DNA of 10,253 nucleotides from Chitinophagaceae bacterium (GTDB lineage Bacteria; Bacteroidota; Bacteroidia; Chitinophagales; Chitinophagaceae): positions 1 through 10,253 of the forward strand of contig JAOQAL010000800.1 in assembly GCA_025963615.1 (NCBI GenBank), read 5' to 3'. A program made the position numbers and the translations under genes. Below the pieces are notes generated by a model. The model saw only the letters and a program-made list of their open reading frames with translations, searched no databases and was not told the origin of the DNA. Shown here piece after piece: positions 33-10,253 of this stretch (position 1 is its first letter; each line of letters starts with the position of its first letter).

Positions 33-1340
33 TTATTTTAAATTAACTGCCGGTAAAAATTCATTTCCCGCTTTTCTGTTTTTATGATGCCGGAAAAAAA
101 ATCCAATCGCCATTACCATAATGATAACCGAAAGAATGGTTTGCATATATGAAAAATGCATCAGCACATTGGACCAACTCATTTCCTTCATAAAAAATTC
201 TTTGTACAACAGCAGTATCACGCTTCCGAGATAGCCAATCGCATCGCAGATGTATACAAAGAATCCTGCATTCGCCCGGATACGAAAAAGGGCAATCATT
301 CTTTCAAACATAGCCACCTGGAAAGGAATATACGCCAGGAAAAGGCCGGTACCCGACAATAACATCCACCAGAATGGAGACATCATATTTATATGAAATA
401 ATAAAGTGGAAAGACCACTTAAAATCAATCCGCCAATAATCAGGATATTGGTTGCCCCGAATCCTTTGCGGTTACTTTTAATCGTAGATAATAATCCTAC
501 CGCGGCCAATACAACGATGCCAGCAATGGTTTCTGTTTTTGCAAATATTGTTTTATTCCATCCCGGGTCTATTTCATTCCATATCTCTACTGAAAAATTA
601 TCCCTGAAGTCTCTTAGCGTGGCCAGCATGGCATACACAATGACCAATCCTATCAATCCAACGCCGTACTCGCGGAAAACATTTTTCTTATCGGTATTCG
701 TCATGGGTAACCGCGGCGACCGGCTCTGGATATCATCCGGAGTAGGAGCGGGAATTACAGAAAGCATCCATACAAAAAGAAAAAATAGAGGAAGAAACAA
801 TAAGCCCATGACAAATGGCATCCAGAATTCTGAAACAACGGGTAGCCATTCATGCACATAGAAATAAATTGTTTTTAAATACCCTGAAGAAATTATCAGG
901 CTGGTACTGAGACCCATGGCTAACAATTCCGTAAACCGCCTGCCTTCCAGATAACTGAATACAACACCCCATACCATACCCAGTGGCAATCCATTCAGGA
1001 ATAAACAAACAAAATTGTAAGGATAAGGAACCAATCCAAACAATAGCAAAGCCCCTTCGGAGATAAGAATCAGCAGAATGATCAGCTTGTTACGGCTGGA
1101 TGCCTTTAATTCCGAAATTATTTTTATGCCAATAAATTTTGAAAGCATATAACCCATCACCTGGGCGATAACGAGTATGCTTTTGTAATGCATCCCCCAT
1201 AAGGATAAACCGTTATAGGTTCCCGCATTAAAAGGCTTTCGGAAAGCGTACATACAGAAGTAAGCTCCAAAGGCGGCCACCATACACCATACTATGAAAA
1301 AAGTTTTAGAGCGGGTAAAGATTTGTTGAATTGCTTTCAC
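33..1340 (-). CDS. DUF5690-type inner-membrane transporter, GlpT/UhpT-like (MFS)
   Basis: This is a 435-residue, very hydrophobic protein with about twelve predicted membrane segments and a polar loop near residues 197-222, the layout of a major facilitator. I recognise it as the DUF5690 type of Bacteroidota. From memory it aligns with organophosphate:phosphate antiporters: Arg34-Lys35 in segment 1 matches the Arg45-Lys46 motif of E. coli GlpT, SKF at 67-69 matches SKF of GlpT segment 2, Arg243 (or Arg246) in segment 7 sits where GlpT has Arg269, and AGF...GYLGSV at 358-374 matches segment 11. The two arginines bind phosphate in GlpT, so import of an organophosphate or phosphonate anion is a reasonable inference; the substrate is unproven. 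The start is GTG at 1338-1340: an in-frame TAA lies four codons upstream and the next ATG (residue 20) would cut segment 1. No Shine-Dalgarno sequence is visible. It diverges from the regulator gene, which suggests shared control. Confidence 0.88.
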   Translation of the reverse strand: MKAIQQIFTRSKTFFIVWCMVAAFGAYFCMYAFRKPFNAGTYNGLSLWGMHYKSILVIAQVMGYMLSKFIGIKIISELKASSRNKLIILLILISEGALLLFGLVPYPYNFVCLFLNGLPLGMVWGVVFSYLEGRRFTELLAMGLSTSLIISSGYLKTIYFYVHEWLPVVSEFWMPFVMGLLFLPLFFLFVWMLSVIPAPTPDDIQSRSPRLPMTNTDKKNVFREYGVGLIGLVIVYAMLATLRDFRDNFSVEIWNEIDPGWNKTIFAKTETIAGIVVLAAVGLLSTIKSNRKGFGATNILIIGGLILSGLSTLLFHINMMSPFWWMLLSGTGLFLAYIPFQVAMFERMIALFRIRANAGFFVYICDAIGYLGSVILLLYKEFFMKEMSWSNVLMHFSYMQTILSVIIMVMAIGFFFRHHKNRKAGNEFLPAVNLK

Positions 1341-1411
1341 ACCAATAATTTAAATGCGATACTATCGTTTTAAAAAATAAGGACTGCCGGGGCCAGGTTA
1401 TCTAATGGTCA

Positions 1412-1422
1412 TCCTTCTGTTT
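1412..1422 (+). repeat. 11-bp direct repeat, copy 1 (TCCTTCTGTTT)
   Basis: TCCTTCTGTTT is found here and again at 1529-1539, 117 bp away in the same orientation. This copy lies just downstream of the possible leftward -7 element at 1431-1438, so a bound repressor could block transporter transcription. A related 19-bp sequence occurs at 2460-2478 before susC. An operator role is inference. Confidence 0.4.
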
Positions 1423-1528
1423 AGTATTTGTAAATATAATAAAATCCGGCATAGCATGAATTCTATAAATTTATATGTTTGATTAACCGGCTTTGAATGT
1501 ATGATAATTACGATGCGCTTGTGCTACT

Positions 1529-1539
1529 TCCTTCTGTTT
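1529..1539 (+). repeat. 11-bp direct repeat, copy 2 (TCCTTCTGTTT)
   Basis: This is the second exact copy of the element at 1412-1422. Its flank extends the similarity to the site before susC: positions 1525-1543 and 2460-2478 agree at 14 of 19 bases, including TACTTCCTT. It lies about 90 bp upstream of the regulator start, a place suited to autoregulation (inference). Confidence 0.4.
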
Positions 1540-1627
1540 TTGATGTTATCAAAATATTAATTACAGCAACATTGAATTTATTTTTACAGATAGCCTTATC
1601 TTGTCAATCCATTTTAATGTTGAAATC

Positions 1628-2212
1628 ATGGAAGAAGAAGTTCTGATTCAAATAAGCAATCGCATTAAACAGGTGCGGATCGAAAGGAAGATAACGGTAC
1701 AGGAACTGGCTACCAAGGCACAGGTAAGCAAGGGGTTGATCTCGCAGATTGAGAATAACAGAACGGTACCTTCCCTCTGGGTTTTAATGAATATTATCCA
1801 ATCATTGAACCTTGATTTCAATGAATTTTTTAAAGACATCACCCGGCAAAAAAAGAATCCGCATCCGGTTATCTTTAAAAAACGAAAAGATCACCAGGTT
1901 TTTGAAAAGGAAAATACCAGGGGTTTTCTTTATTACCGGGCATTTACGCGTACACTGCAGGGTGGTGCTGCCGACTTCGTGATTCTGGAATTAAAAAAAG
2001 GGGCTAAACGGAACCGGATGGTAAAGACTGATTCTTTTGAGTATAACTATATGATCAAAGGAAAGGTGGACTATACCATTGAAGACAAGAAGTATCTTTT
2101 TGAGGAAGGTGACTCGCTGTTTATGGACAGCCGGCTAAGCCACAAAATTTCAAATACCGGGAATGGCGATGCGCTGATGCTCGTAGTTTATTTCTTTATT
2201 GCCGGTAATTAA
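1628..2212 (+). CDS. XRE-family HTH transcriptional regulator with C-terminal cupin domain
   Basis: This 194-residue protein has an XRE-type helix-turn-helix at about residues 8-63 (recognition helix near 35-43, KGLISQIEN) and a cupin barrel at about 118-190. Proteins with this layout, such as PuuR and SutR of E. coli, are small-molecule-responsive regulators of nearby catabolic or uptake genes. The cupin lacks the histidine pair and glutamate of motif 1 and keeps only His172 of motif 2, so it probably binds a ligand without a catalytic metal. I chose ATG at 1628; the TTG at 1601, also in frame, would add nine residues unlike the family and overlap a possible promoter. Its position between the divergent transporter and the susCD operon makes it the likely regulator of both. 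The effector is unknown; a locus substrate is a guess. Confidence 0.93.
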   Translation: MEEEVLIQISNRIKQVRIERKITVQELATKAQVSKGLISQIENNRTVPSLWVLMNIIQSLNLDFNEFFKDITRQKKNPHPVIFKKRKDHQVFEKENTRGFLYYRAFTRTLQGGAADFVILELKKGAKRNRMVKTDSFEYNYMIKGKVDYTIEDKKYLFEEGDSLFMDSRLSHKISNTGNGDALMLVVYFFIAGN

Positions 2213-2390
2213 AAACCTGGTGAAATTAAACTGTGGTTATATTCAAAAAAAAGTTATGCACTTCCCTTGGCGTGATAATTCCCTGCATTCACCCAAATTA
2301 AGTATCCACTTTTAACGCTTAGCGCTTTGAATTCTCTATCATAAAACAGGTAACCGGTAATTTAAAGAACGCTGCATAGAATTTGCGGTG

Positions 2391-2407
2391 TGCATAAAAT
2401 TAATGCA
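2391..2407. repeat. Interrupted palindrome TGCAT-N7-ATGCA
   Basis: Two perfect 5-bp arms flank an AT-rich 7-bp centre, about 60 bp upstream of the likely susC -33 element. The shape fits a dimeric helix-turn-helix binding site, but arms this short can arise by chance in AT-rich DNA. Confidence 0.25.
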
Positions 2408-2466
2408 AACGTATGCGTAATTTTAAAATAAAGTTTAGTATTTCTTAACAAATTGATAATACTTCC

Positions 2467-2500
2467 TTTAGATTTAGGTAATCTTGGACTTAAATCTTTG
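2467..2500 (+). promoter_or_regulatory. Probable susC promoter (Bacteroidota -33/-7 type)
   Basis: AATCTTTG at 2493-2500 matches TAnnTTTG at five of the six fixed positions. TTTAG at 2467-2471 lies 21 bp upstream, where a TTTG-like -33 box is expected. Transcription would start near 2507, giving a leader of about 30 nt before the ATG at 2539. The 19-bp motif at 2460-2478 overlaps the -33 box, as a repressor site would. Confidence 0.45.
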
Positions 2501-2538
2501 CAACCAGACTTTCAATTAAAAACAAAACTACTGTTTCC

Positions 2539-3018
2539 ATGCTTAACTACTGTTCCCGCTTCAGGCGCTTTGGACTTACCATTTTAATGTTTATGGTGTC
2601 ATACGTTGTTATGGCTCAGCGGACCATAAGCGGTAAGGTTTTATCCGGTGAAAATAAACAGCCGCTTACCGGGGCGACAATTACAAACAAGAAATCAAAA
2701 ACACAGGCCATTACAGACGCAGAAGGTAACTTTAACATTCTCGCCTCCGATGGAGATGTGCTGGTAATCAGTAATATTGGATTTTCCAATAAGGAATTTA
2801 AAGCAGGAGATGCCACTTCGGTCATTGAACTGGCTGTTGAACAAACCAATCTTTCCGAAATCGTGGTAACCGCGCTGGGTATTAAAAAAGAAGTAAAGCG
2901 GTTAGGGTATTCTGTACAGGAAATAAAGGGTGCAGACCTGGTAAAAGCCAGAGAGGCCAATCCCATCAATGGTCTGGTGGGTAAAATAGCAGGGTTGGAT
3001 GTTGCCATATCCCGGTAA
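2539..3018 (+). CDS. SusC N-terminal part: signal peptide, CarboxypepD_reg-like domain, start of plug
   Basis: This 159-residue frame begins with a Sec signal peptide (charged RFRR, hydrophobic GLTILMFMVSYVVM, probable cleavage at AQ near residues 26-27). A carboxypeptidase-regulatory-like beta domain follows (about 28-103: RTISGKVLSGENKQPLTGATI, then DAEGNF). Next come the SusC-typical VVTALGIKKEVKRLGYSVQEI (TonB-box region and plug start) and the plug motif GLVGKIAGLDVAIS. It then meets the TAA. Alone it could be exported, but without the barrel it cannot transport. The ATG at 2539 fits because it begins a complete signal peptide about 30 nt from the candidate transcription start. Confidence 0.85.
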   Translation: MLNYCSRFRRFGLTILMFMVSYVVMAQRTISGKVLSGENKQPLTGATITNKKSKTQAITDAEGNFNILASDGDVLVISNIGFSNKEFKAGDATSVIELAVEQTNLSEIVVTALGIKKEVKRLGYSVQEIKGADLVKAREANPINGLVGKIAGLDVAISR

Positions 3019-5787
3019 ATGCTTGCAGCTCCGGCTGTTTCACTCCGTGGTCAGAATATCACGTTGTATGTCGTAGATGGCATGCCGATCAGTTCCGACA
3101 CTTGGAATATCAGCCCCGATGATATTGAAACCTATACCGTATTAAAAGGATTAGCCGCGACAGCCATTTATGGTAGCCGTGCACAAAATGGAGCTATTCT
3201 GATTACAACAAAAAGAGGCAAAAGAAATGCAAAAGGGTTTTCTGTTGACTTTAATTCCAGCACGCAGGTAGATAACGGTTTTATCGCTCTTCCGGAAACT
3301 CAGGCTTTATACGGTGGAGGTGAACGCACAGAATATGCATTTGGCGATGGTAAAGGCGGCGGATTAAATGATGGAGATTATGATGTATGGGGACCGAAAT
3401 TTAATGGTCAGCTAATACCACAATATGATAGTCCGATTGATCCTGCCACAGGTATCAGGCAAGGAACCCCTTATGTTGCCCGCGGCGTAAATAATCTTAA
3501 GAGATTTATACAGCCAGGCCTGCTCACTACTAACAGTATCAGTTTTTCAGGCGCGAGCGACCGTGCGAATGTCAGAGTTTCGTTTAGCAACAGTCACCAG
3601 AAAGGCATAATACCTAACACCAAACTAGATATTAATAACTTTAATATTACGGCTGGCTACGATCTCACCAGTAAATTAAAAATTGAAGGTGGCCTTAATT
3701 ATAACAGGCAGAATAGCCCTAATATTCCCGATGTACAATACGGCCCTAACAGCGTTATTTACAGCATGACGATATGGACCGGCGCTGACTGGGATGTAGA
3801 TGCTCCGGATATAAGAGGAATATGGCAACCCGGTAAGGAAGGGGTGCAGTCCGTTTTTGCAGAATATCAACGTTATCATAATCCCTGGTTTATGAGTTAT
3901 GAATGGCTTCGGGGTCATTACAAAACAGACGTGTATGGCAATCTTGGTCTAACTTATAAATTCAACACACATCTGGAAGCTGTTCTGCGCGCCAACGTAA
4001 GTACTTATGATGTGCTTCGGAACGAAAAAATGCCTTATTCTGCTCATCCCTACGGACGTGAAGAAAATCGCGGGGACTATCGCGAAGACCGCCGTTCATT
4101 GTATGATAACAATGTGGAAGGACTCGTGAAGTACAATAATAAAATAGGCAGCGCATTTACTATTGATGCATTGGCCGGTGTGAATGCCCGTAATTTTAAA
4201 TATAATTCAAGTTTTGTTACTACCGATTACCTGAACGTTCCGGGCTTATATAGCTTTTCAAACTCGGTTAACCCGATCAAAGCTTATAGCTACAATGCCG
4301 ACATGTTAGTTTTAAGTGCTTATTATTCTGTGGGACTTGAATTCAAAGATTATCTGACACTTACTACAACAGGACGTGTGGATAAAAGTTCAAGCCTGTT
4401 AAAAAATAACAATACTTATTTTTATCCTTCTTTTTCTCTGGCATCCGTTATCTCAGATTATGTTAAAATGCCAAAAGTTATAAGCTTTTTGAAAGTAAGA
4501 GCCAGTTATGCTACTGCTAAGGCCCCAAGCACTTCTGCTTACCTCGGACCAGCCGGTTATCCGCTTGGCTATGGAGCACCATATGTTACTACTTATGGTG
4601 GTCCGAATTTTGGTTTGTCTGATCCTGCTTACACAATAAGTCCTACTTATAATAATCTTACCGGCGCTTATGCTCCCGGAAATAAGATTGACCCGAATGT
4701 AAAATCTTCGGTTTTAAAAAGTACTGAATATGGTTTAGATATAAGATTTCTTGGAAACAGGCTTGGGTTCAGCGCTACTTACTATTCAAATTTGATAGGT
4801 CCCTATATCAGGCCTTTCCCATTGTCTGAAGCATCCGGACTTACGGCTTTTACCACCAACGCTATTACAACAAAGCTTTCTGGTGCAGAAATTTCTTTGA
4901 TGGGAACTCCGATTCAAACGAAAACGGGCTTCCGTTGGGATGTGTTAGTAAACTGGTCAACCTTTAAAGAGGTGTATAAAGATTATCCTTCCAATTTTGC
5001 AAACTATCAATTTCACCAGGGAGACCGGGTAGACAAGCTTTTTGCCAATTTGACAGCCAAGACTCCTGATGGACAGGTAATAAATAACGGTGCTGGTTTC
5101 CCGGTATATCTTCCCAAAGGTCAATATGTAGGTAATGGAGATGTTGACTGGAGCTGGGCCATTAATAATAGATTCACCTATAAGACTTTTAGTCTTTCAT
5201 TCCAGTTTGATGGTAAAGTTGGAGGTATTGTTCAGGATTATGTAAAAAGAAAATCAACAGAAGGTGGCAGCAATATTGAAACCGTACAGGGCGCCGTGGG
5301 TGTAGCAAGACAATATGAGAATGATCATCATAAAGATCCGGGTTTTGAAGGCTCTTATGTGGGCGAAGGCGTACAAGTGTCAAACGGTGCTGTTATACAA
5401 TATGATGATGTAACCGGTGTGATTACGAATTATAAAGACCTGCAGTTTGCCACGAATACTTCAAAAGTTAAATACATACAGGATTATGTGAGCAGCTTCT
5501 TTAATAATTTCGAACATACTTCTGTTGCAAAAACTTACGCAAAACTGAGAGAAGTAGTATTAACCTATTCTTTGCCAATGAAGGTATTTGGCGATAAATC
5601 GGTTATCAGGAAAATTGAAATTTCACTGGTCGGCCGTAACCTGTTGTATTTCTTTCCTTCGCGGTTTCATGATATTGATGTTGACCAGTATTCCGGAAGA
5701 AATATTTACAGTGGCAATAGCCGTGAACCCAATTTGCAAACACCCACGACCCGGAGTTATGGATTCAACATTAATGTTGGCTTCTGA
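3019..5787 (+). CDS. SusC C-terminal part: plug remainder and 22-strand-type outer-membrane barrel
   Basis: This 922-residue frame continues the SusC plug with LYVVDGMPI (residues 17-25) and the conserved YGSRAQNGAILITTKRGK (51-68). A long barrel follows, rich in aromatic and alternating polar residues, and ends in INVGF, with the terminal Phe of an outer-membrane beta-signal. In an intact gene this would be the TonB-driven pore that imports the ligand handed over by SusD, powered by ExbBD-TonB. The apparent ATG at 3019 is adjacent to the upstream stop and is very likely an internal Met codon of the original gene, because no signal peptide follows. The gene ends with TGA 35 bp before susD, so the two should be co-transcribed. 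Confidence 0.9.
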   Translation: MLAAPAVSLRGQNITLYVVDGMPISSDTWNISPDDIETYTVLKGLAATAIYGSRAQNGAILITTKRGKRNAKGFSVDFNSSTQVDNGFIALPETQALYGGGERTEYAFGDGKGGGLNDGDYDVWGPKFNGQLIPQYDSPIDPATGIRQGTPYVARGVNNLKRFIQPGLLTTNSISFSGASDRANVRVSFSNSHQKGIIPNTKLDINNFNITAGYDLTSKLKIEGGLNYNRQNSPNIPDVQYGPNSVIYSMTIWTGADWDVDAPDIRGIWQPGKEGVQSVFAEYQRYHNPWFMSYEWLRGHYKTDVYGNLGLTYKFNTHLEAVLRANVSTYDVLRNEKMPYSAHPYGREENRGDYREDRRSLYDNNVEGLVKYNNKIGSAFTIDALAGVNARNFKYNSSFVTTDYLNVPGLYSFSNSVNPIKAYSYNADMLVLSAYYSVGLEFKDYLTLTTTGRVDKSSSLLKNNNTYFYPSFSLASVISDYVKMPKVISFLKVRASYATAKAPSTSAYLGPAGYPLGYGAPYVTTYGGPNFGLSDPAYTISPTYNNLTGAYAPGNKIDPNVKSSVLKSTEYGLDIRFLGNRLGFSATYYSNLIGPYIRPFPLSEASGLTAFTTNAITTKLSGAEISLMGTPIQTKTGFRWDVLVNWSTFKEVYKDYPSNFANYQFHQGDRVDKLFANLTAKTPDGQVINNGAGFPVYLPKGQYVGNGDVDWSWAINNRFTYKTFSLSFQFDGKVGGIVQDYVKRKSTEGGSNIETVQGAVGVARQYENDHHKDPGFEGSYVGEGVQVSNGAVIQYDDVTGVITNYKDLQFATNTSKVKYIQDYVSSFFNNFEHTSVAKTYAKLREVVLTYSLPMKVFGDKSVIRKIEISLVGRNLLYFFPSRFHDIDVDQYSGRNIYSGNSREPNLQTPTTRSYGFNINVGF

Positions 5788-5797
5788 GAAAAGTAAA

Positions 5798-5811
5798 ATT
5801 GTTTAAACAAT
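5798..5811. repeat. 14-bp perfect palindrome in the susC-susD spacer
   Basis: ATTGTTTAAACAAT reads the same on both strands and occupies much of the 35-bp gap between susC and susD. As RNA it could form only a weak AU-rich hairpin of about five pairs with no following T-run, so it is not a terminator. It might be a protein site or chance. Confidence 0.3.
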
Positions 5812-5822
5812 AAAGAAATCAA

Positions 5823-7403
5823 ATGAAAAAGCATAATTATTATATAGTAGTCCTGTTTGCGTTACTACTGTCGACAAACAGTTGTAAAAAACAATACAAC
5901 GACTATACGCCGGATCCAAATAACCCGGTAACGGTTCCCCCCTACCTGGTTTTAAGACAAATCCTCAATGACATGGTAGTCTATCCTTTTGGCGATGCGG
6001 ATAAATTTGGACAGTTTGTTTTATCATCGTACACGTATTATGGCACCAATGAATACTGGACCGGCAGTGCCGATTTAAATTATGGTACCCTGCGTAATGT
6101 TGCGGCCATGGATAAAGAGGCTAAAAGATCGGCTGGCGATGTTAATAACCCTTATTCAGCGCTCGCCAAGTTTTTCAAAGCCTATTTTTTTATAGATATG
6201 AGCTTGAAAGTGGGAGATGTCCCGATGACGGAAGCATTGCTGGGTTTAGAGAATCCAACGCCAAAATATGATTCTCAGAAAGATGTTTTTAAACAATCGC
6301 TGGACCTGCTTGAACAAGCCAATAATGATCTTGCTGCTTTAATCAGCGCTGCTGATGTGTCATTACTGGGTGATTTCTACTTCCAGGAAAGAATTAATGG
6401 ACCTGAAACTCCTTTAAATGCTTTAAAGTCATGGCAGAAAGTTGTTAATACTTATAAATTACGGGTATTAATTGCATTAAGCAAAAAAGCTGATGATGCG
6501 GATCTTGGCGTGAAACAAAAGTTCAATGATGTCTTAAGTGATCCTGCCAAATACCCGATCATGGAAAGTTTAGACGATAACCTTCAATACGTCTATAACA
6601 ACGCCTTCAATAAATATCCGAATAACAAGGATAATTATGGTTTTGATGCTACCAGGATCACCGTAGGTCAAACCTGGATAAACACATTATCCAGTCTGAA
6701 TGATTTGCGTGTTATGAAAATTGCTGATCCAGCGCGTGGACTGGGCTTTGCTGACACCGATTACCGATCATTTGTAGGTGCCAGTAACGGAGAAGATGTA
6801 AGTACGATGGGTGGTAAAGTGGAACAGGGTTTATATTCATTGGTAGGAAGAAAAAGATACTATGATGGTTATTTAGGCGAACCTACCTTTATTGTAGGCT
6901 ATCCGGAAATGTGCTTCAATATTGCAGAAGCGATTAACCGGGGTTGGGTAACCGGCGATGCTGATAGTTGGTATCAAAAAGGGATTAAAGCTGATTTTGA
7001 TTTTTATGGAGTTGTGGATGGTGACAATACTATCAGCTTCTTAAGAACACTGGCACCCGGCGACTATGTAAATTACACCGTTAATTTTAGTTACGCTACA
7101 TATTTTAACCAACCTGCTGTTAAGTATGCAGGTGATAACGCCACTGGTCTGGGCCAGATACTCACTCAAAAATATTTAGCTTTTGGCAGGAACTCTGGTT
7201 ACGAAGCGTATTATCAGTGGCGCAGAACAAATGTACCGACATTTTCAACGGGTCCTGGCATCGGAAATAGTGGCGTGATACCTTTGCGGTGGCAATATCC
7301 AACTGCGGAATTATCTACCAATGCAGCAAATTATACCGCAGCCGTACAAAGTCAATATGGCGGTGACGATAACATCAATTTGCAGATGTGGATTATAAAA
7401 TAG
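5823..7403 (+). CDS. SusD/RagB-family nutrient-binding outer-membrane lipoprotein
   Basis: This 526-residue protein has a lipoprotein-type leader: Lys2-Lys3, a hydrophobic core at 7-16 and Cys21 followed by KK. The residues before the Cys (STNS) are a loose lipobox, which is common in this phylum. The mature part resembles the SusD-like group that follows SusC: an early segment NPNNPVTVPPYLVLRQIL, helix-rich TPR-like regions around 100-230, FKAYFFIDMSLKVGDVPMTEALLG (about 120-143), and a late EAYYQWRRTNVPTF segment (about 463-476). SusD proteins form the surface lid of the SusC barrel and capture the ligand. The frame is intact although its partner is interrupted. The ligand cannot be read from the sequence; gene context points to a phosphorus-containing organic compound rather than a glycan. 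The leader before ATG is A-rich without Shine-Dalgarno. Confidence 0.94.
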   Translation: MKKHNYYIVVLFALLLSTNSCKKQYNDYTPDPNNPVTVPPYLVLRQILNDMVVYPFGDADKFGQFVLSSYTYYGTNEYWTGSADLNYGTLRNVAAMDKEAKRSAGDVNNPYSALAKFFKAYFFIDMSLKVGDVPMTEALLGLENPTPKYDSQKDVFKQSLDLLEQANNDLAALISAADVSLLGDFYFQERINGPETPLNALKSWQKVVNTYKLRVLIALSKKADDADLGVKQKFNDVLSDPAKYPIMESLDDNLQYVYNNAFNKYPNNKDNYGFDATRITVGQTWINTLSSLNDLRVMKIADPARGLGFADTDYRSFVGASNGEDVSTMGGKVEQGLYSLVGRKRYYDGYLGEPTFIVGYPEMCFNIAEAINRGWVTGDADSWYQKGIKADFDFYGVVDGDNTISFLRTLAPGDYVNYTVNFSYATYFNQPAVKYAGDNATGLGQILTQKYLAFGRNSGYEAYYQWRRTNVPTFSTGPGIGNSGVIPLRWQYPTAELSTNAANYTAAVQSQYGGDDNINLQMWIIK

Positions 7404-7431
7404 ACCACAATATTTAAATTTTTATTCTTAC

Positions 7432-7464
7432 AGAGGCGAAGCTTTACAGTTTCGCCTCTTTTTT
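7432..7464 (+). terminator. Intrinsic terminator or attenuator after susD
   Basis: AGAGGCGAA (7432-7440) and TTCGCCTCT (7451-7459) form a perfect 9-bp stem around a 10-base loop, followed by five Ts, then AA and four more Ts. This is a strong rho-independent terminator. Only 17 bp separate it from the next ATG, too little for a promoter, so the downstream genes probably depend on read-through or on a promoter inside susD. It would set SusCD expression above that of the enzymes. Confidence 0.88.
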
Positions 7465-7481
7465 AATTTTATAAAATAAAC

Positions 7482-8555
7482 ATGAAAAAAATATTTTTCC
7501 TTGTTGCATGCCTGTTTACGTTGGCAGCATATTCTCAAAAAAGAAAAACAGAAAATATCATCATCGTTACATTAGATGGTATGCGCTGGCAGGAAATTTT
7601 TGGGGGCGTTGACTCAGTGATCCTGAATAACCCGGAATACACCCATGAAAGAGAAGGTATAAAATCTTTTTTATGGAGCGATGATGTGTCAGAAAGGAGA
7701 AAGAAACTATTCCCTTTTTTGTGGAACACGATTGGCAGTCATGGACAGTTATACGGAAACAGGAACAATGGAAACCTGGTGGATGTCGCCAATCCTTACC
7801 GGTTCTCCTACCCTGGTTATAATGAAATTTTTACCGGGTATCCCGATACGGCGGTTAATTCCAATGATAAAATACCCAATAAGAATGAAAATGTGCTGGA
7901 GTTTATCAACAAACAAAAAACCTATAAAAATAAAGTAGCCGCTTTCAGCACCTGGGACGTTTCTCCTTATTTTCTAAATAAATGGAGAAGCGGTGTGTAT
8001 GTGAATGCGGATAAAGATTCTATCCAATTTGGATCGCTTCAGTCCAAACTCATCAATGATATTCAACTCCTTTCTATGAAGCCCAATGGTGAACGGCTTG
8101 ATATCATAACCTTTATTGCCGCAAGGGAATATTTTAAACAACAAAAACCAAAGGTTCTTTATATTTCCTTTGACGAAACAGATGAATATGCTCACCAGGG
8201 CAAATATGACTACTACCTCGGCGCCGCCCATGCGGAAGATGGTATGATCGGGGATATCTGGAATTTGGCGCAATCATTACCTGAATACAAAGATAAAACC
8301 ACCCTGATTATAACCACTGATCATGGCCGGGGCGATAAAATAAAGAGCGAATGGAGAGATCATGGAAAAAAAATTGAGGACGCAAGCCAGATATGGTTAG
8401 CGGTAATAGGACCCGATACAACACCCCTGGGCGAAATAAAAACTCCCGGACAGCTTTATCAAAAACAATATGCCGCAACGATCGCAGCTTTACTGGGTTT
8501 TGATTTTAAACCAGCACAGCCCGTTGGAGAAAAAATACCTGGCATTCTGAAATAA
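7482..8555 (+). CDS. Secreted alkaline-phosphatase-superfamily hydrolase (nucleotide pyrophosphatase/phosphodiesterase-like)
   Basis: This 357-residue protein begins with a Sec signal peptide (KK, a hydrophobic core to about residue 17, cleavage near AYSQ), so it should act in the periplasm or outside. The fold's two-metal site is recognisable: Asp32 in TLDGMRW; Ser109 in FSYPGYNEIFTG, where phosphodiesterases of this type have a Thr nucleophile; Asp234 and His238 in DETDEYAH; Asp280-His281 in TTDHG; and His294 in WRDHG. All expected ligands appear present, so the enzyme should be active. The superfamily cleaves phosphate mono- and diesters, phosphonate esters and sulfate esters, so the substrate is not fixed by sequence. 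Next to susCD and an aminophosphonate-type oxidase, release of a free phosphonate or phosphate headgroup is the likely role (inference). The short length and absence of a C-terminal sulfatase domain argue against a classical sulfatase. Confidence 0.9.
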   Translation: MKKIFFLVACLFTLAAYSQKRKTENIIIVTLDGMRWQEIFGGVDSVILNNPEYTHEREGIKSFLWSDDVSERRKKLFPFLWNTIGSHGQLYGNRNNGNLVDVANPYRFSYPGYNEIFTGYPDTAVNSNDKIPNKNENVLEFINKQKTYKNKVAAFSTWDVSPYFLNKWRSGVYVNADKDSIQFGSLQSKLINDIQLLSMKPNGERLDIITFIAAREYFKQQKPKVLYISFDETDEYAHQGKYDYYLGAAHAEDGMIGDIWNLAQSLPEYKDKTTLIITTDHGRGDKIKSEWRDHGKKIEDASQIWLAVIGPDTTPLGEIKTPGQLYQKQYAATIAALLGFDFKPAQPVGEKIPGILK

Positions 8556-8589
8556 ACCAACGACCGACTTATCTTAACAATTAGTTTTT

Positions 8590-9714
8590 ATGTCACAACG
8601 CACTGCTATAGTTATCGGGGCCGGTATTGCCGGATTAGCTGCGGCAAGAGCTTTAGCCGCACGGGGTACTCAGGTGACTGTACTTGAAAGGACCCAGAAA
8701 GCAGTTGGAGCGTCTATCCGAAATTTTGGAATGATTATACCCTTTGGCCAGTCCGATGGAAAATATTACGAAAGAGCGATACTTTCGCGGCAGATATGGA
8801 AACAGGTTTGTAATGAAGCCGGAATCTGGTATCACGAAGCAGGTTCCTTGCAGCTTGCTTATTCACAGGAGGAATGGCAGGTATTGCAGGAAGTAAATGA
8901 GGCTTACCGACACCGGAACTATGAATTATTAAGTCCGGATGAAACCATCAATAAATCAGATGCAGTTGTAAGAGAAGGTCTGAAAGGAAGCTTATATAGC
9001 AAGGATGAAATAATTGTTGACCCCCGCGTAGCCATCGGCGCCATTCCTTTGTTTCTTACCGAAAAATATAATGTTGAGTTTTTATGGGGGAAAGCCGTTA
9101 CGGATATTTGTTACCCTGCCGTATATGCCGGCAAAGAACAATTCAATGCTGATGAAATTTATGTATGCAGCGGCGCTGACTTTGAAACATTGTACCCGGA
9201 ATTGTATTCGCAGTTACCAATAACAAGATGTAAACTGCAAATGCTGCGGATGGCGGCACAACCTGGAGGATGGCGTATGGGCCCCATGCTATGCAGTGGT
9301 CTTTCTTTAATTCATTACAATAGTTTTAAGGTGGCAGGTTCATTGGCCCAATTAACTAAGAAACTAGAGGCGGAATACCCCGAGTACCTTAAATGGGGTA
9401 TTCATGTAATGGCATCTCAAAACCAGGCTGGCGAGCTGACCATCGGAGATTCGCATGAATACGGGTTAACGCCTGATCCTTTTGATAAAAGTTTTATTAA
9501 TGATCTTATTCTTGCTTACCTGGATAAATTCGCCCGTTTTAAAAACAATCATGTTATTGAAACCTGGAATGGTGTGTATCCAAAATTAACCAATGGAGAA
9601 ATTGATGTAATTCTTAAGCCGGAAAATGGAGTGACGGTTGTAAACGGGCTTGGTGGCGCCGGCATGACTTTTTCATTTGGTTTGTTGGAACAGCTGATTG
9701 GAGAAAGGCGGTAA
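8590..9714 (+). CDS. TIGR03364-type FAD-dependent oxidoreductase, putative aminophosphonate oxidase
   Basis: This 374-residue protein belongs to the DAO/glycine-oxidase-like flavoproteins. The N-terminus has the dinucleotide-binding motif GAGIAG at residues 10-15 with the acidic end VLE at 31-33. It is followed by GASIRNFGMI(I)PFGQ at 40-54, which I recognise as the signature of the TIGR03364 subgroup. The C-terminal FAD contact NGLGGAGMTFSFG spans 352-364. There is no signal peptide, so it is cytoplasmic. That subgroup is defined by genomic association with phosphonatase-like hydrolases and phosphonate transporters, and is proposed to deaminate or dealkylate an aminoethylphosphonate-like amine with O2 as acceptor. 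The exact substrate here is unknown; generic amine or amino-acid oxidation is the alternative. It begins 34 bp after the phosphatase gene, so the two are probably co-transcribed. The usual HAD hydrolase partner does not follow it. Confidence 0.9.
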   Translation: MSQRTAIVIGAGIAGLAAARALAARGTQVTVLERTQKAVGASIRNFGMIIPFGQSDGKYYERAILSRQIWKQVCNEAGIWYHEAGSLQLAYSQEEWQVLQEVNEAYRHRNYELLSPDETINKSDAVVREGLKGSLYSKDEIIVDPRVAIGAIPLFLTEKYNVEFLWGKAVTDICYPAVYAGKEQFNADEIYVCSGADFETLYPELYSQLPITRCKLQMLRMAAQPGGWRMGPMLCSGLSLIHYNSFKVAGSLAQLTKKLEAEYPEYLKWGIHVMASQNQAGELTIGDSHEYGLTPDPFDKSFINDLILAYLDKFARFKNNHVIETWNGVYPKLTNGEIDVILKPENGVTVVNGLGGAGMTFSFGLLEQLIGERR

Positions 9715-9763
9715 AGCGACGAGCTGTGAGCTTCGAGCTGAGAGCTTCGAGCTATGAGCTGCA

Positions 9764-9783
9764 AGCTTCAAGACCTATAGTTC
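9764..9783 (+). repeat. 20-bp direct repeat, copy 1 (with 9812-9831)
   Basis: The 20 bases from AGCTTC to TAGTTC recur without mismatch at 9812-9831, a period of 48 bp. They sit in the left half of the heptad array and show that it also grew by larger duplications. Confidence 0.85.
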
Positions 9784-9811
9784 AGTAACTTAAGAGAAGC
9801 TTCGAGCTGCG

Positions 9812-9831
9812 AGCTTCAAGACCTATAGTTC
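9812..9831 (+). repeat. 20-bp direct repeat, copy 2 (with 9764-9783)
   Basis: This is the second exact copy, again closing with the heptads AAGACCT and ATAGTTC, which are not of the GAGCTNN form. The flanking bases differ, so the duplication boundary is sharp on the right. Confidence 0.85.
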
Positions 9832-9842
9832 GTATCTTATTT

Positions 9843-9922
9843 CAGTCTCGCAGCTCATAGCTTGCAGCTTGCGGCTTTCTCACAGTCTCGCAGCTCATAG
9901 CTTGCAGCTCGAAGCTTTCTTA
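9843..9922 (-). repeat. Tandem pair of 40-bp units in the right half of the heptad array
   Basis: Units 9843-9882 and 9883-9922 share their first 27 bases exactly (CAGTCTCG...GCAGCT) and then diverge at a few positions before a common CTTTCT. Read on the minus strand they contain GAGCTGC, AAGCTAT and GAGCTGC heptads, complementary to those in the left half. Confidence 0.85.
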
Positions 9923-10253
9923 GTCTTGCAGCACCGTTTCAATTTCACTCAATTCACCAGTTGAAAATTCAAGGTTGTTTAAACAGGCCAGGTTATTATC
10001 CAGTTGCTCTACTGAACTTACGCCAATCAGTACCGTGGTAATCCTTTTATCTTTCAGCAACCATGATAAGGCCATTTGCGAAAGTGATTGATTCCTTCTT
10101 TTGGCAATATCATTCAACCGGGTAATCTTATTTAGTTTGTGTTCATCTATTTCATCTGCTTTTAAAAACCCATGTGATTTGGAAGCTCTCGAGCCTTCGG
10201 GTATTCCTTTCAGGTACCGATCCGTCAATAACCCCTGCGCCAGGGGTGAAAAT
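9920..10253 (-). CDS. Aldo/keto reductase, YghZ-type (C-terminal part; 5' end outside window)
   Basis: The open frame runs off the right edge of the window. Reading on from the edge gives FSPLAQGLLTDRYLKGIPEGSR, closely matching the FTPLAQGLLTGKYLNGIPQDSR segment of E. coli YghZ (L-glyceraldehyde-3-phosphate reductase) as I remember it. The family's NADPH-binding region follows: ALSWLLKD, TTVLIGVSSVEQLDNN and FSTGELSEIE. About 110 C-terminal residues are visible, roughly a third of a normal protein. The apparent TTG start at 10226-10228 is not real, because conserved sequence continues upstream of it. The protein ends in LQD, shorter at the C-terminus than YghZ by about 14 residues, with its TAA inside the last heptad repeat. 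It is convergent with the oxidoreductase and probably not part of the same pathway; it may reduce small or methylglyoxal-type aldehydes. Confidence 0.92.
   Translation of the reverse strand, partial: FSPLAQGLLTDRYLKGIPEGSRASKSHGFLKADEIDEHKLNKITRLNDIAKRRNQSLSQMALSWLLKDKRITTVLIGVSSVEQLDNNLACLNNLEFSTGELSEIETVLQD

Follow-up and report, generated by a model that had tools for sequence, protein, structure and literature searches.

The window, a stretch of 10,253 nucleotides that is the entire contig JAOQAL010000800.1 (C749) of the Chitinophagaceae assembly GCA_025963615.1, is probably one half of a phosphonate utilisation locus, the half that covers uptake and the first oxidation. Here, adjacent susC and susD genes are followed by genes for a phosphoesterase and for a flavoprotein of the PbfD type, and are accompanied by a regulator gene and a divergent transporter gene. 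A phosphonate-scavenging role for the SusCD pair is well supported because these neighbourhoods are conserved: a phosphonate enzyme lies within 10 kb in 54 of 80 loci that hold relatives of the window's SusD, but in none of the 20 loci built around SusD paralogues that are more distant.

The oxidation step is indicated by the flavoprotein, which scores well above the curated cut-off of TIGR03364 (406.4 versus 285.1 bits), the family of PbfD. Oxidation of N-methyl-2-aminoethylphosphonate to phosphonoacetaldehyde has been shown for two PbfD enzymes; plain 2-aminoethylphosphonate (AEP) is also a substrate of one of the pair, just 4-fold slower (PMC10590968). By analogy, the window enzyme would convert N-methyl-AEP, and perhaps AEP, to phosphonoacetaldehyde.

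Organisation of the locus

The genes of the window are as follows.

33..1340, minus strand: DUF5690 inner-membrane protein of the major facilitator superfamily (MFS), proposed aminophosphonate importer (Pfam E 3e-156)
1628..2212, plus strand: XRE-cupin transcription regulator, proposed to be substrate-responsive (helix-turn-helix and Cupin_2 matches; searched as 1625-2212)
2539..5787, plus strand: SusC-type TonB-dependent outer-membrane transporter with one in-frame TAA at 3016-3018 (TIGR04056)
5823..7403, plus strand: SusD-like_2 surface lipoprotein, the ligand-binding lid of SusC (PF12771, 178.7 bits)
7482..8555, plus strand: phosphoesterase of the alkaline phosphatase superfamily, predicted to be secreted (secretion read by eye from the N-terminus)
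8590..9714, plus strand: PbfD (TIGR03364), flavin adenine dinucleotide (FAD)-dependent aminophosphonate oxidase (406.4 bits, cut-off 285.1)
9920-10252, strand opposite to pbfD: aldo-keto reductase gene, cut off

The DUF5690 gene, which stops (at its 3' end) 33 bases short of where the contig ends, is divergent from the plus-strand genes that run from the XRE-cupin gene to the flavoprotein gene; from susC through the flavoprotein gene the gaps are 34 to 78 bases, an operon-like spacing. An earlier note on this DNA had listed susC, susD, a hydrolase, a TIGR03364 flavoprotein, a divergent transporter and an XRE-cupin regulator, and all are present on the strands that it gave. Its statement that no glycoside hydrolase is present agrees with our scans: none of these families was matched by the eight window proteins searched with Pfam and NCBIfam, a set that omits two overlapping antisense open reading frames. 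Because the eight proteins include no carbohydrate-active enzyme, the locus is like a polysaccharide utilisation locus (PUL) but is not a PUL. The complete degradation route that the note saw in the window fell away, as no enzyme that cleaves the carbon-phosphorus (C-P) bond was identified there. The locus may be truncated on both sides, since the window spans its contig from end to end.

Conserved surroundings of PbfD

In a sample of 248 genomes drawn from the order, PbfD was found in 61 (E 1e-60; 58 over the cut-off), a PhnX-like hydrolase in 71 (E 1e-25; 13 over the cut-off), the Phn-HD oxygenase in 50 (E 1e-15; 23 over the cut-off) and DUF5690 in 82 (E 1e-30). These genes keep close company. 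Among the 61 PbfD genomes, 57 have DUF5690 and 56 a PhnX-like hydrolase (Fisher p 3e-31 and 2e-35, with genomes treated as independent although they are related), 37 have Phn-HD, and DUF5690 is present in all 50 Phn-HD genomes.

The neighbourhoods show the same company at close range. Stretches of up to 20 kb from 60 genomes, many of them ending at contig ends, together with the window gave 61 PbfD loci, in which DUF5690 lies nearby in 44, a PhnX-like gene in 43, SusD in 29, SusC in 25, Phn-HD in 25 and the secreted hydrolase in 23. SusCD is thus seen in under half of the PbfD loci within the stretches fetched. The earlier note had said that its proposal would be refuted if the SusCD pair and the phosphatase were not conserved with the flavoprotein in related genomes; at these frequencies they do recur with it. 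The PhnX-like proteins keep a D-x-A-G-T motif, with D10, G13, T14, K50 and R153 invariant in 43 of 43 and A12 kept in 41 of 43. We take the motif, the lysine and the arginine to be marks of phosphonoacetaldehyde hydrolase.

XRE-cupin homologues stand in 13 of the 61 PbfD loci and in 21 of the 80 SusD loci considered below. A sensor kinase and response regulator, PhoR/PhoB-like by eye, recur in L038, L042, L046, L082, L096, L102, L104 and L106, adjoining PbfD loci and also lone DUF5690 genes. This recurrence could be a shared insertion site or a link to phosphate control.

A SusD clade with exchangeable pathways

The window SusD belongs to families PF12771/PF12741, and its Cys21 is invariant in the 13 sequences aligned. 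This alignment, all of whose rows come from phosphonate loci, was used to scan the contigs of named genomes; 460 relatives came out, and we retained the best 80 among them. Genes around them were labelled in BLAST comparisons with reference proteins, at identity thresholds that we chose, and examples were checked with family models. The 20 paralogue loci used for comparison were picked by hand (three stretches of 20 kb, fifteen of 15 kb, one of 13 kb and one of 4 kb). For the difference in phosphonate enzymes, Fisher p is 1.8e-8, computed at 53 of 80 and with genomes treated as independent. At least five of the 80 loci (L148, L149, L169, L171 and L194) are seed loci or, in the case of L149, a near copy of one by identity; when these five are left out, a phosphonate enzyme is present in 49 of 75.

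What stands beside this SusD clade is not one pathway but several. PbfD, a PhnX-like hydrolase or both occur in 38 loci, and also in L217, which has a true PhnX as well. PhnA with PhnY is found in 8 loci, none of which has PbfD, and PhnX-like and PhnA occur together in none of the 43 loci that have either. PhnW with a true PhnX is found in two loci, L214 and L221 (PhnX at 313 and 316 bits, cut-off 220); both have a GlpT-related MFS protein, and no DUF5690 was seen in either stretch. L214 is from Prolixibacteraceae, and its sequence by eye continues into apparent phosphate ATP-binding cassette transporter genes. A C-P lyase operon is present in one locus, L188 of an uncultured Mucilaginibacter, where PhnG, H, J, K, L and M and a phosphonate-binding protein were identified downstream of SusCD and a GDPD gene. 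Phn-HD alone accounts for 4 of the 80 loci. One quick tree of the SusDs calls for eight or more changes of module; two of the 80 SusDs, shorter than 480 residues, were dropped from that tree, and the count leaves out loci that have no clear single module. Despite variation in gene order, the loci have much of their gene set in common.

Because the lid protein stays in place while functionally equivalent pathways are swapped behind it, the SusCD pair is tied to phosphonates. The arrangement is best explained if the pair imports a substrate class that the swapped pathways have in common, a proposal read from gene content. In a first tree, built from 24 of 29 clustered SusDs after those of 350 residues or fewer were dropped, the window SusD is one of 18 SusDs from phosphonate loci that form a clade with support 99/95.

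A wider proposal is possible, if a little short of probable: that this SusCD clade has become a specialist for macromolecules or lipids that bear phosphonate. Such a clade would have a constant outer-membrane and periplasmic front end, made up of SusC, SusD, exchangeable phosphodiesterases and DUF5690 as a new importer of aminophosphonates, and a cytoplasmic module for C-P bond breaking that would have changed eight or more times between four chemistries, across several Bacteroidota families. The earlier note had likewise seen in the window a SusCD system for scavenging phosphonates. The core of that idea is borne out by the conserved neighbourhoods; for the lipid or polymer substrate that it added, what we can point to is the recurring secreted phosphoesterase. 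Import of a lipid or polymer is plausible, with a small ester as another candidate.

Two further features of these loci may be recorded. A second FAD oxidoreductase of about 410 residues occurs in L099, L105, L169, L171, L175, L178, L179, L183 and L202 (L099 and L105 being the same loci as L169 and L171). It accompanies PhnA and PhnY, except in L179, which has PhnX-like and PhnW instead. The models nearest to it are those of N-methyltryptophan oxidase in the three examples scanned, and it is possibly PbfC-like. L168, L195 and L225 have two PhnX-like genes per locus, the second just 35-37% identical to the reference set.

The secreted hydrolase and DUF5690

The predicted structure of the window hydrolase folds like PafA and the NPP phosphoesterases, with PafA nearest, at the low level of 13-20% identity over the aligned parts. 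The single protein has no match among PDB sequences at E 0.1, and its profile matches are weak (best E 0.0037). Asp32, Ser109, Asp234, His238, Asp280, His281 and His294 are invariant in 21 aligned hydrolases; with roles assigned as in NPP and PafA, these are presumably the nucleophile and the six ligands of a two-metal site, so that the metal-ligand set is shared as well as the fold. A sulfatase-type phosphonate monoester hydrolase was considered as an assignment and rejected. Such enzymes carry the motif C/S-x-P-x-R and a formylglycine nucleophile; the window protein and 19 more of the 21 rows have S-Y-P-G without the arginine in the fifth place. The relative in L105 has an arginine there and matches the Pfam Sulfatase model.

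DUF5690 is present in 44 of the 80 SusD loci. Its predicted structure is an MFS fold nearest the organophosphate antiporters (OPA). The earlier note had called the transporter GlpT-like. This description suits the predicted fold, which resembles that of organophosphate:phosphate antiporters such as GlpT, UhpT and SLC37A4, but not the sequence, which at E 1e-3 gave no NCBIfam match, whether to the GlpT/OPA models or to any other, and which matched no PDB sequence.

Among the 80 kept loci, several window proteins are closest to those of PhnA/PhnY loci: DUF5690 (73% and 66%), the hydrolase (72%) and the XRE-cupin protein, whose four closest relatives are all from such loci (70% and 65%). The window PbfD is closest to a PbfD from Mucilaginibacter (58%).

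The host genome and a proposed route

The assembly comprises 4.78 Mb in 835 contigs and is 79% complete with 4.3% contamination; we treat its host organism as a species of Chitinophagaceae. Another of its contigs, C606, encodes PhnA (495 bits, cut-off 408), PhnY (674, cut-off 636) and PhnW (485, cut-off 401). No match to the PhnX-like hydrolase (TIGR03351, E 1e-25) or to Phn-HD was found in this 79%-complete genome. Because C606 and the window are in the same bin, they are assigned to one organism. The tetranucleotide match between them, 0.894, is the best of 10 sequences compared, though this is a weak test.

The two contigs together recall a single locus, L183, in which the order is DUF5690, XRE-cupin, SusC, SusD, PhnA, PhnY, hydrolase, another FAD oxidoreductase, PhnW and Phn-HD. 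The window and C606 have the gene set of L183 with PbfD in place of the FAD oxidoreductase and without Phn-HD. Because of this match, the most likely flow in the host, as judged from gene content, is that PbfD or PhnW would form phosphonoacetaldehyde and that PhnY and PhnA would convert it to acetate and phosphate.

The proposed route would begin at the cell surface, where SusD may capture a phosphonate-bearing molecule and SusC bring it across the outer membrane. The secreted PafA/NPP-like hydrolase would then break a phosphoester or phosphonoester and free an aminophosphonate, which DUF5690, with its organophosphate-antiporter fold, may move across the inner membrane. PbfD would turn N-methyl-AEP, perhaps AEP, into phosphonoacetaldehyde, the activity published for its family. 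PhnY and PhnA encoded on C606 would carry phosphonoacetaldehyde through phosphonoacetate to acetate and phosphate, with PhnW taking plain AEP; the reactions of these three enzymes are assumed from what we know of their families. The XRE-cupin protein would regulate the locus.

Weighing the phosphonate reading

Several observations weigh against this reading of the window. The SusD search was seeded from phosphonate loci, and most of the paralogue stretches are shorter and offer less flank. Twenty-six of the 80 SusD loci lack these enzymes; 16 of the 26 end within 7 kb downstream, and among the 54 loci with at least 7 kb downstream there are 10 without them, including four Dyadobacter loci. The phosphonate-locus SusDs are not one clade but fall into two lineages, 18 and 8 of 26, the second mixed with other loci, and five label changes are needed; the association must therefore have been gained or lost on more than one occasion. 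The PLC-like esterase is found in 3 of the 20 paralogue loci too. In ten genomes DUF5690 occurs while PbfD, PhnX-like and Phn-HD are all lacking, and in 9 of the 61 PbfD loci PbfD stands without any of the other genes sought. As to the host, the tetranucleotide scores of two foreign loci (0.876 and 0.868) lie close to that of C606 and above that of another contig of the assembly, L137 (4 kb, 0.775), and C606 could be in the assembly through a binning error, contamination being 4.3%.

The loci without phosphonate enzymes lend something to a different account, in which the cargo of the SusCD pair is an unrelated glycan or peptide and its position beside phosphonate genes comes from a regulatory or insertion hotspot; so, too, does the sensor kinase and response regulator neighbourhood that several PbfD loci share with lone DUF5690 genes. 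We regard this account as very improbable. It has to contend with the paralogue loci, none of which has a phosphonate enzyme, with arrangements that differ from locus to locus while much of the gene set persists, and with the eight scanned window proteins, none of which matches a glycoside hydrolase family.

A more serious competitor, although still quite unlikely, concerns the phosphoesterases. Three unrelated kinds of secreted phosphoesterase (PHOS, PLC-like and GDPD) recur in the SusD loci, with one or more in 65 of the 80. PafA, nearest to the window hydrolase model, is a broad phosphatase. The system might thus be one for general phosphate utilisation, acting on phosphate diesters and monoesters of lipids or nucleic acids, with the phosphonate enzymes as accessory passengers. 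In Flavobacterium, SusCD-like PusCD systems that are induced by depletion of inorganic phosphate (Pi) have been described (PMC8115612). The four kinds of phosphonate enzyme that interchange beside the same SusD clade, and their absence from the paralogue loci, tell against such a role. Passengers are not expected to be swapped for functional equivalents.

The state of susC raises a separate issue, compatible with any of these readings. The gene is interrupted by the single in-frame TAA at 3016-3018, directly followed by an ATG, and the remainder of its 1082-codon frame is open. Both pieces match TIGR04056, each below the cut-off on its own. The stop is absent from all 22 relatives that cover the site, a set preselected for frames of more than 900 residues. 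It could be the sign of a decaying locus or a non-functional copy, in which a nonsense codon breaks SusC and the system is dead in this host. We consider such a remnant unlikely. No second stop occurs in the 1082 codons, and the frames of the remaining genes are uninterrupted, so the likelihood of an error in sequencing or assembly, or of a minor strain variant, is no lower.

At the other end of the locus, between pbfD and the aldo-keto reductase gene (9715-9920), lie dense direct and inverted repeats based on AGCTTCGAGCT / AGCTTGCAGCT. These could be an intergenic repeat element of the host genome.

Implications

Bacteroidota are among the main degraders of complex organic matter, and phosphonate uptake by them is little described. 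If the phosphonate reading is correct, a likely function could be given to DUF5690, a family of unknown function, certain SusCD systems now regarded as importers of glycans would instead take up phosphonates, and natural phosphonate-bearing lipids and glycans would gain a candidate route of uptake. Strain records for Limnovirga soli, Ilyomonas limi, Sediminibacterium magnilacihabitans and Mucilaginibacter flavidus make the role testable.

Comparison with known systems

The literature searched, which included few subscription papers, yielded no report of a PF12771-type SusD clade of this kind in Chitinophagaceae, Sphingobacteriaceae, Spirosomataceae and Prolixibacteraceae, of its pairing with PbfD and in turn with PhnX, PhnY-PhnA and C-P lyase, or of the DUF5690 assignment and the regulator. 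That search found no paper naming DUF5690, none joining SusC, phosphonate and C-P lyase, and none joining phosphonate, TonB-dependent, Bacteroidota and 2-aminoethylphosphonate.

The PbfD oxidases characterised earlier belong to the same TIGR family as the window protein, and the clustering with PhnX-like genes described for them is seen among the window's relatives, though not in the window itself; the main text of that report contains no word starting Bacteroid, TonB, SusD or Chitinophag (PMC10590968). The hydrolytic AEP pathways PhnW-PhnX and PhnW-PhnY-PhnA are both among the interchangeable modules beside this SusD clade. Here their enzymes stand with SusCD and often with DUF5690. PhnY-PhnA has been noted in Bacteroidetes (PMC12366243).

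The closest parallel is with the PusCD systems of Flavobacterium. There, six of six PusCD complexes are stated to co-localise with phosphomonoesterases, phosphodiesterases and phosphonate-degrading enzymes (PMC8115612). As in the window, whose hydrolase is so far a predicted phosphoesterase, a SusCD pair is accompanied by secreted phosphoesterases rather than glycoside hydrolases. The lids differ: PusD1 and PusD2 are described as pf07980/pf14322 proteins, whereas the window SusD is of the PF12771/PF12741 type, and the main text is without phnW, phosphonoacetaldehyde, aminoethylphosph- or pf12771 (PMC8115612). The earlier note had thought phosphonates a substrate class not usually assigned to SusCD. 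That claim must be narrowed: the idea had already been stated for Flavobacterium PusCD (PMC8115612), and what we did not find published is the particular variant seen here. The general link between SusCD and phosphonates is therefore already in print, and the window locus is a wider and better-supported case of it.

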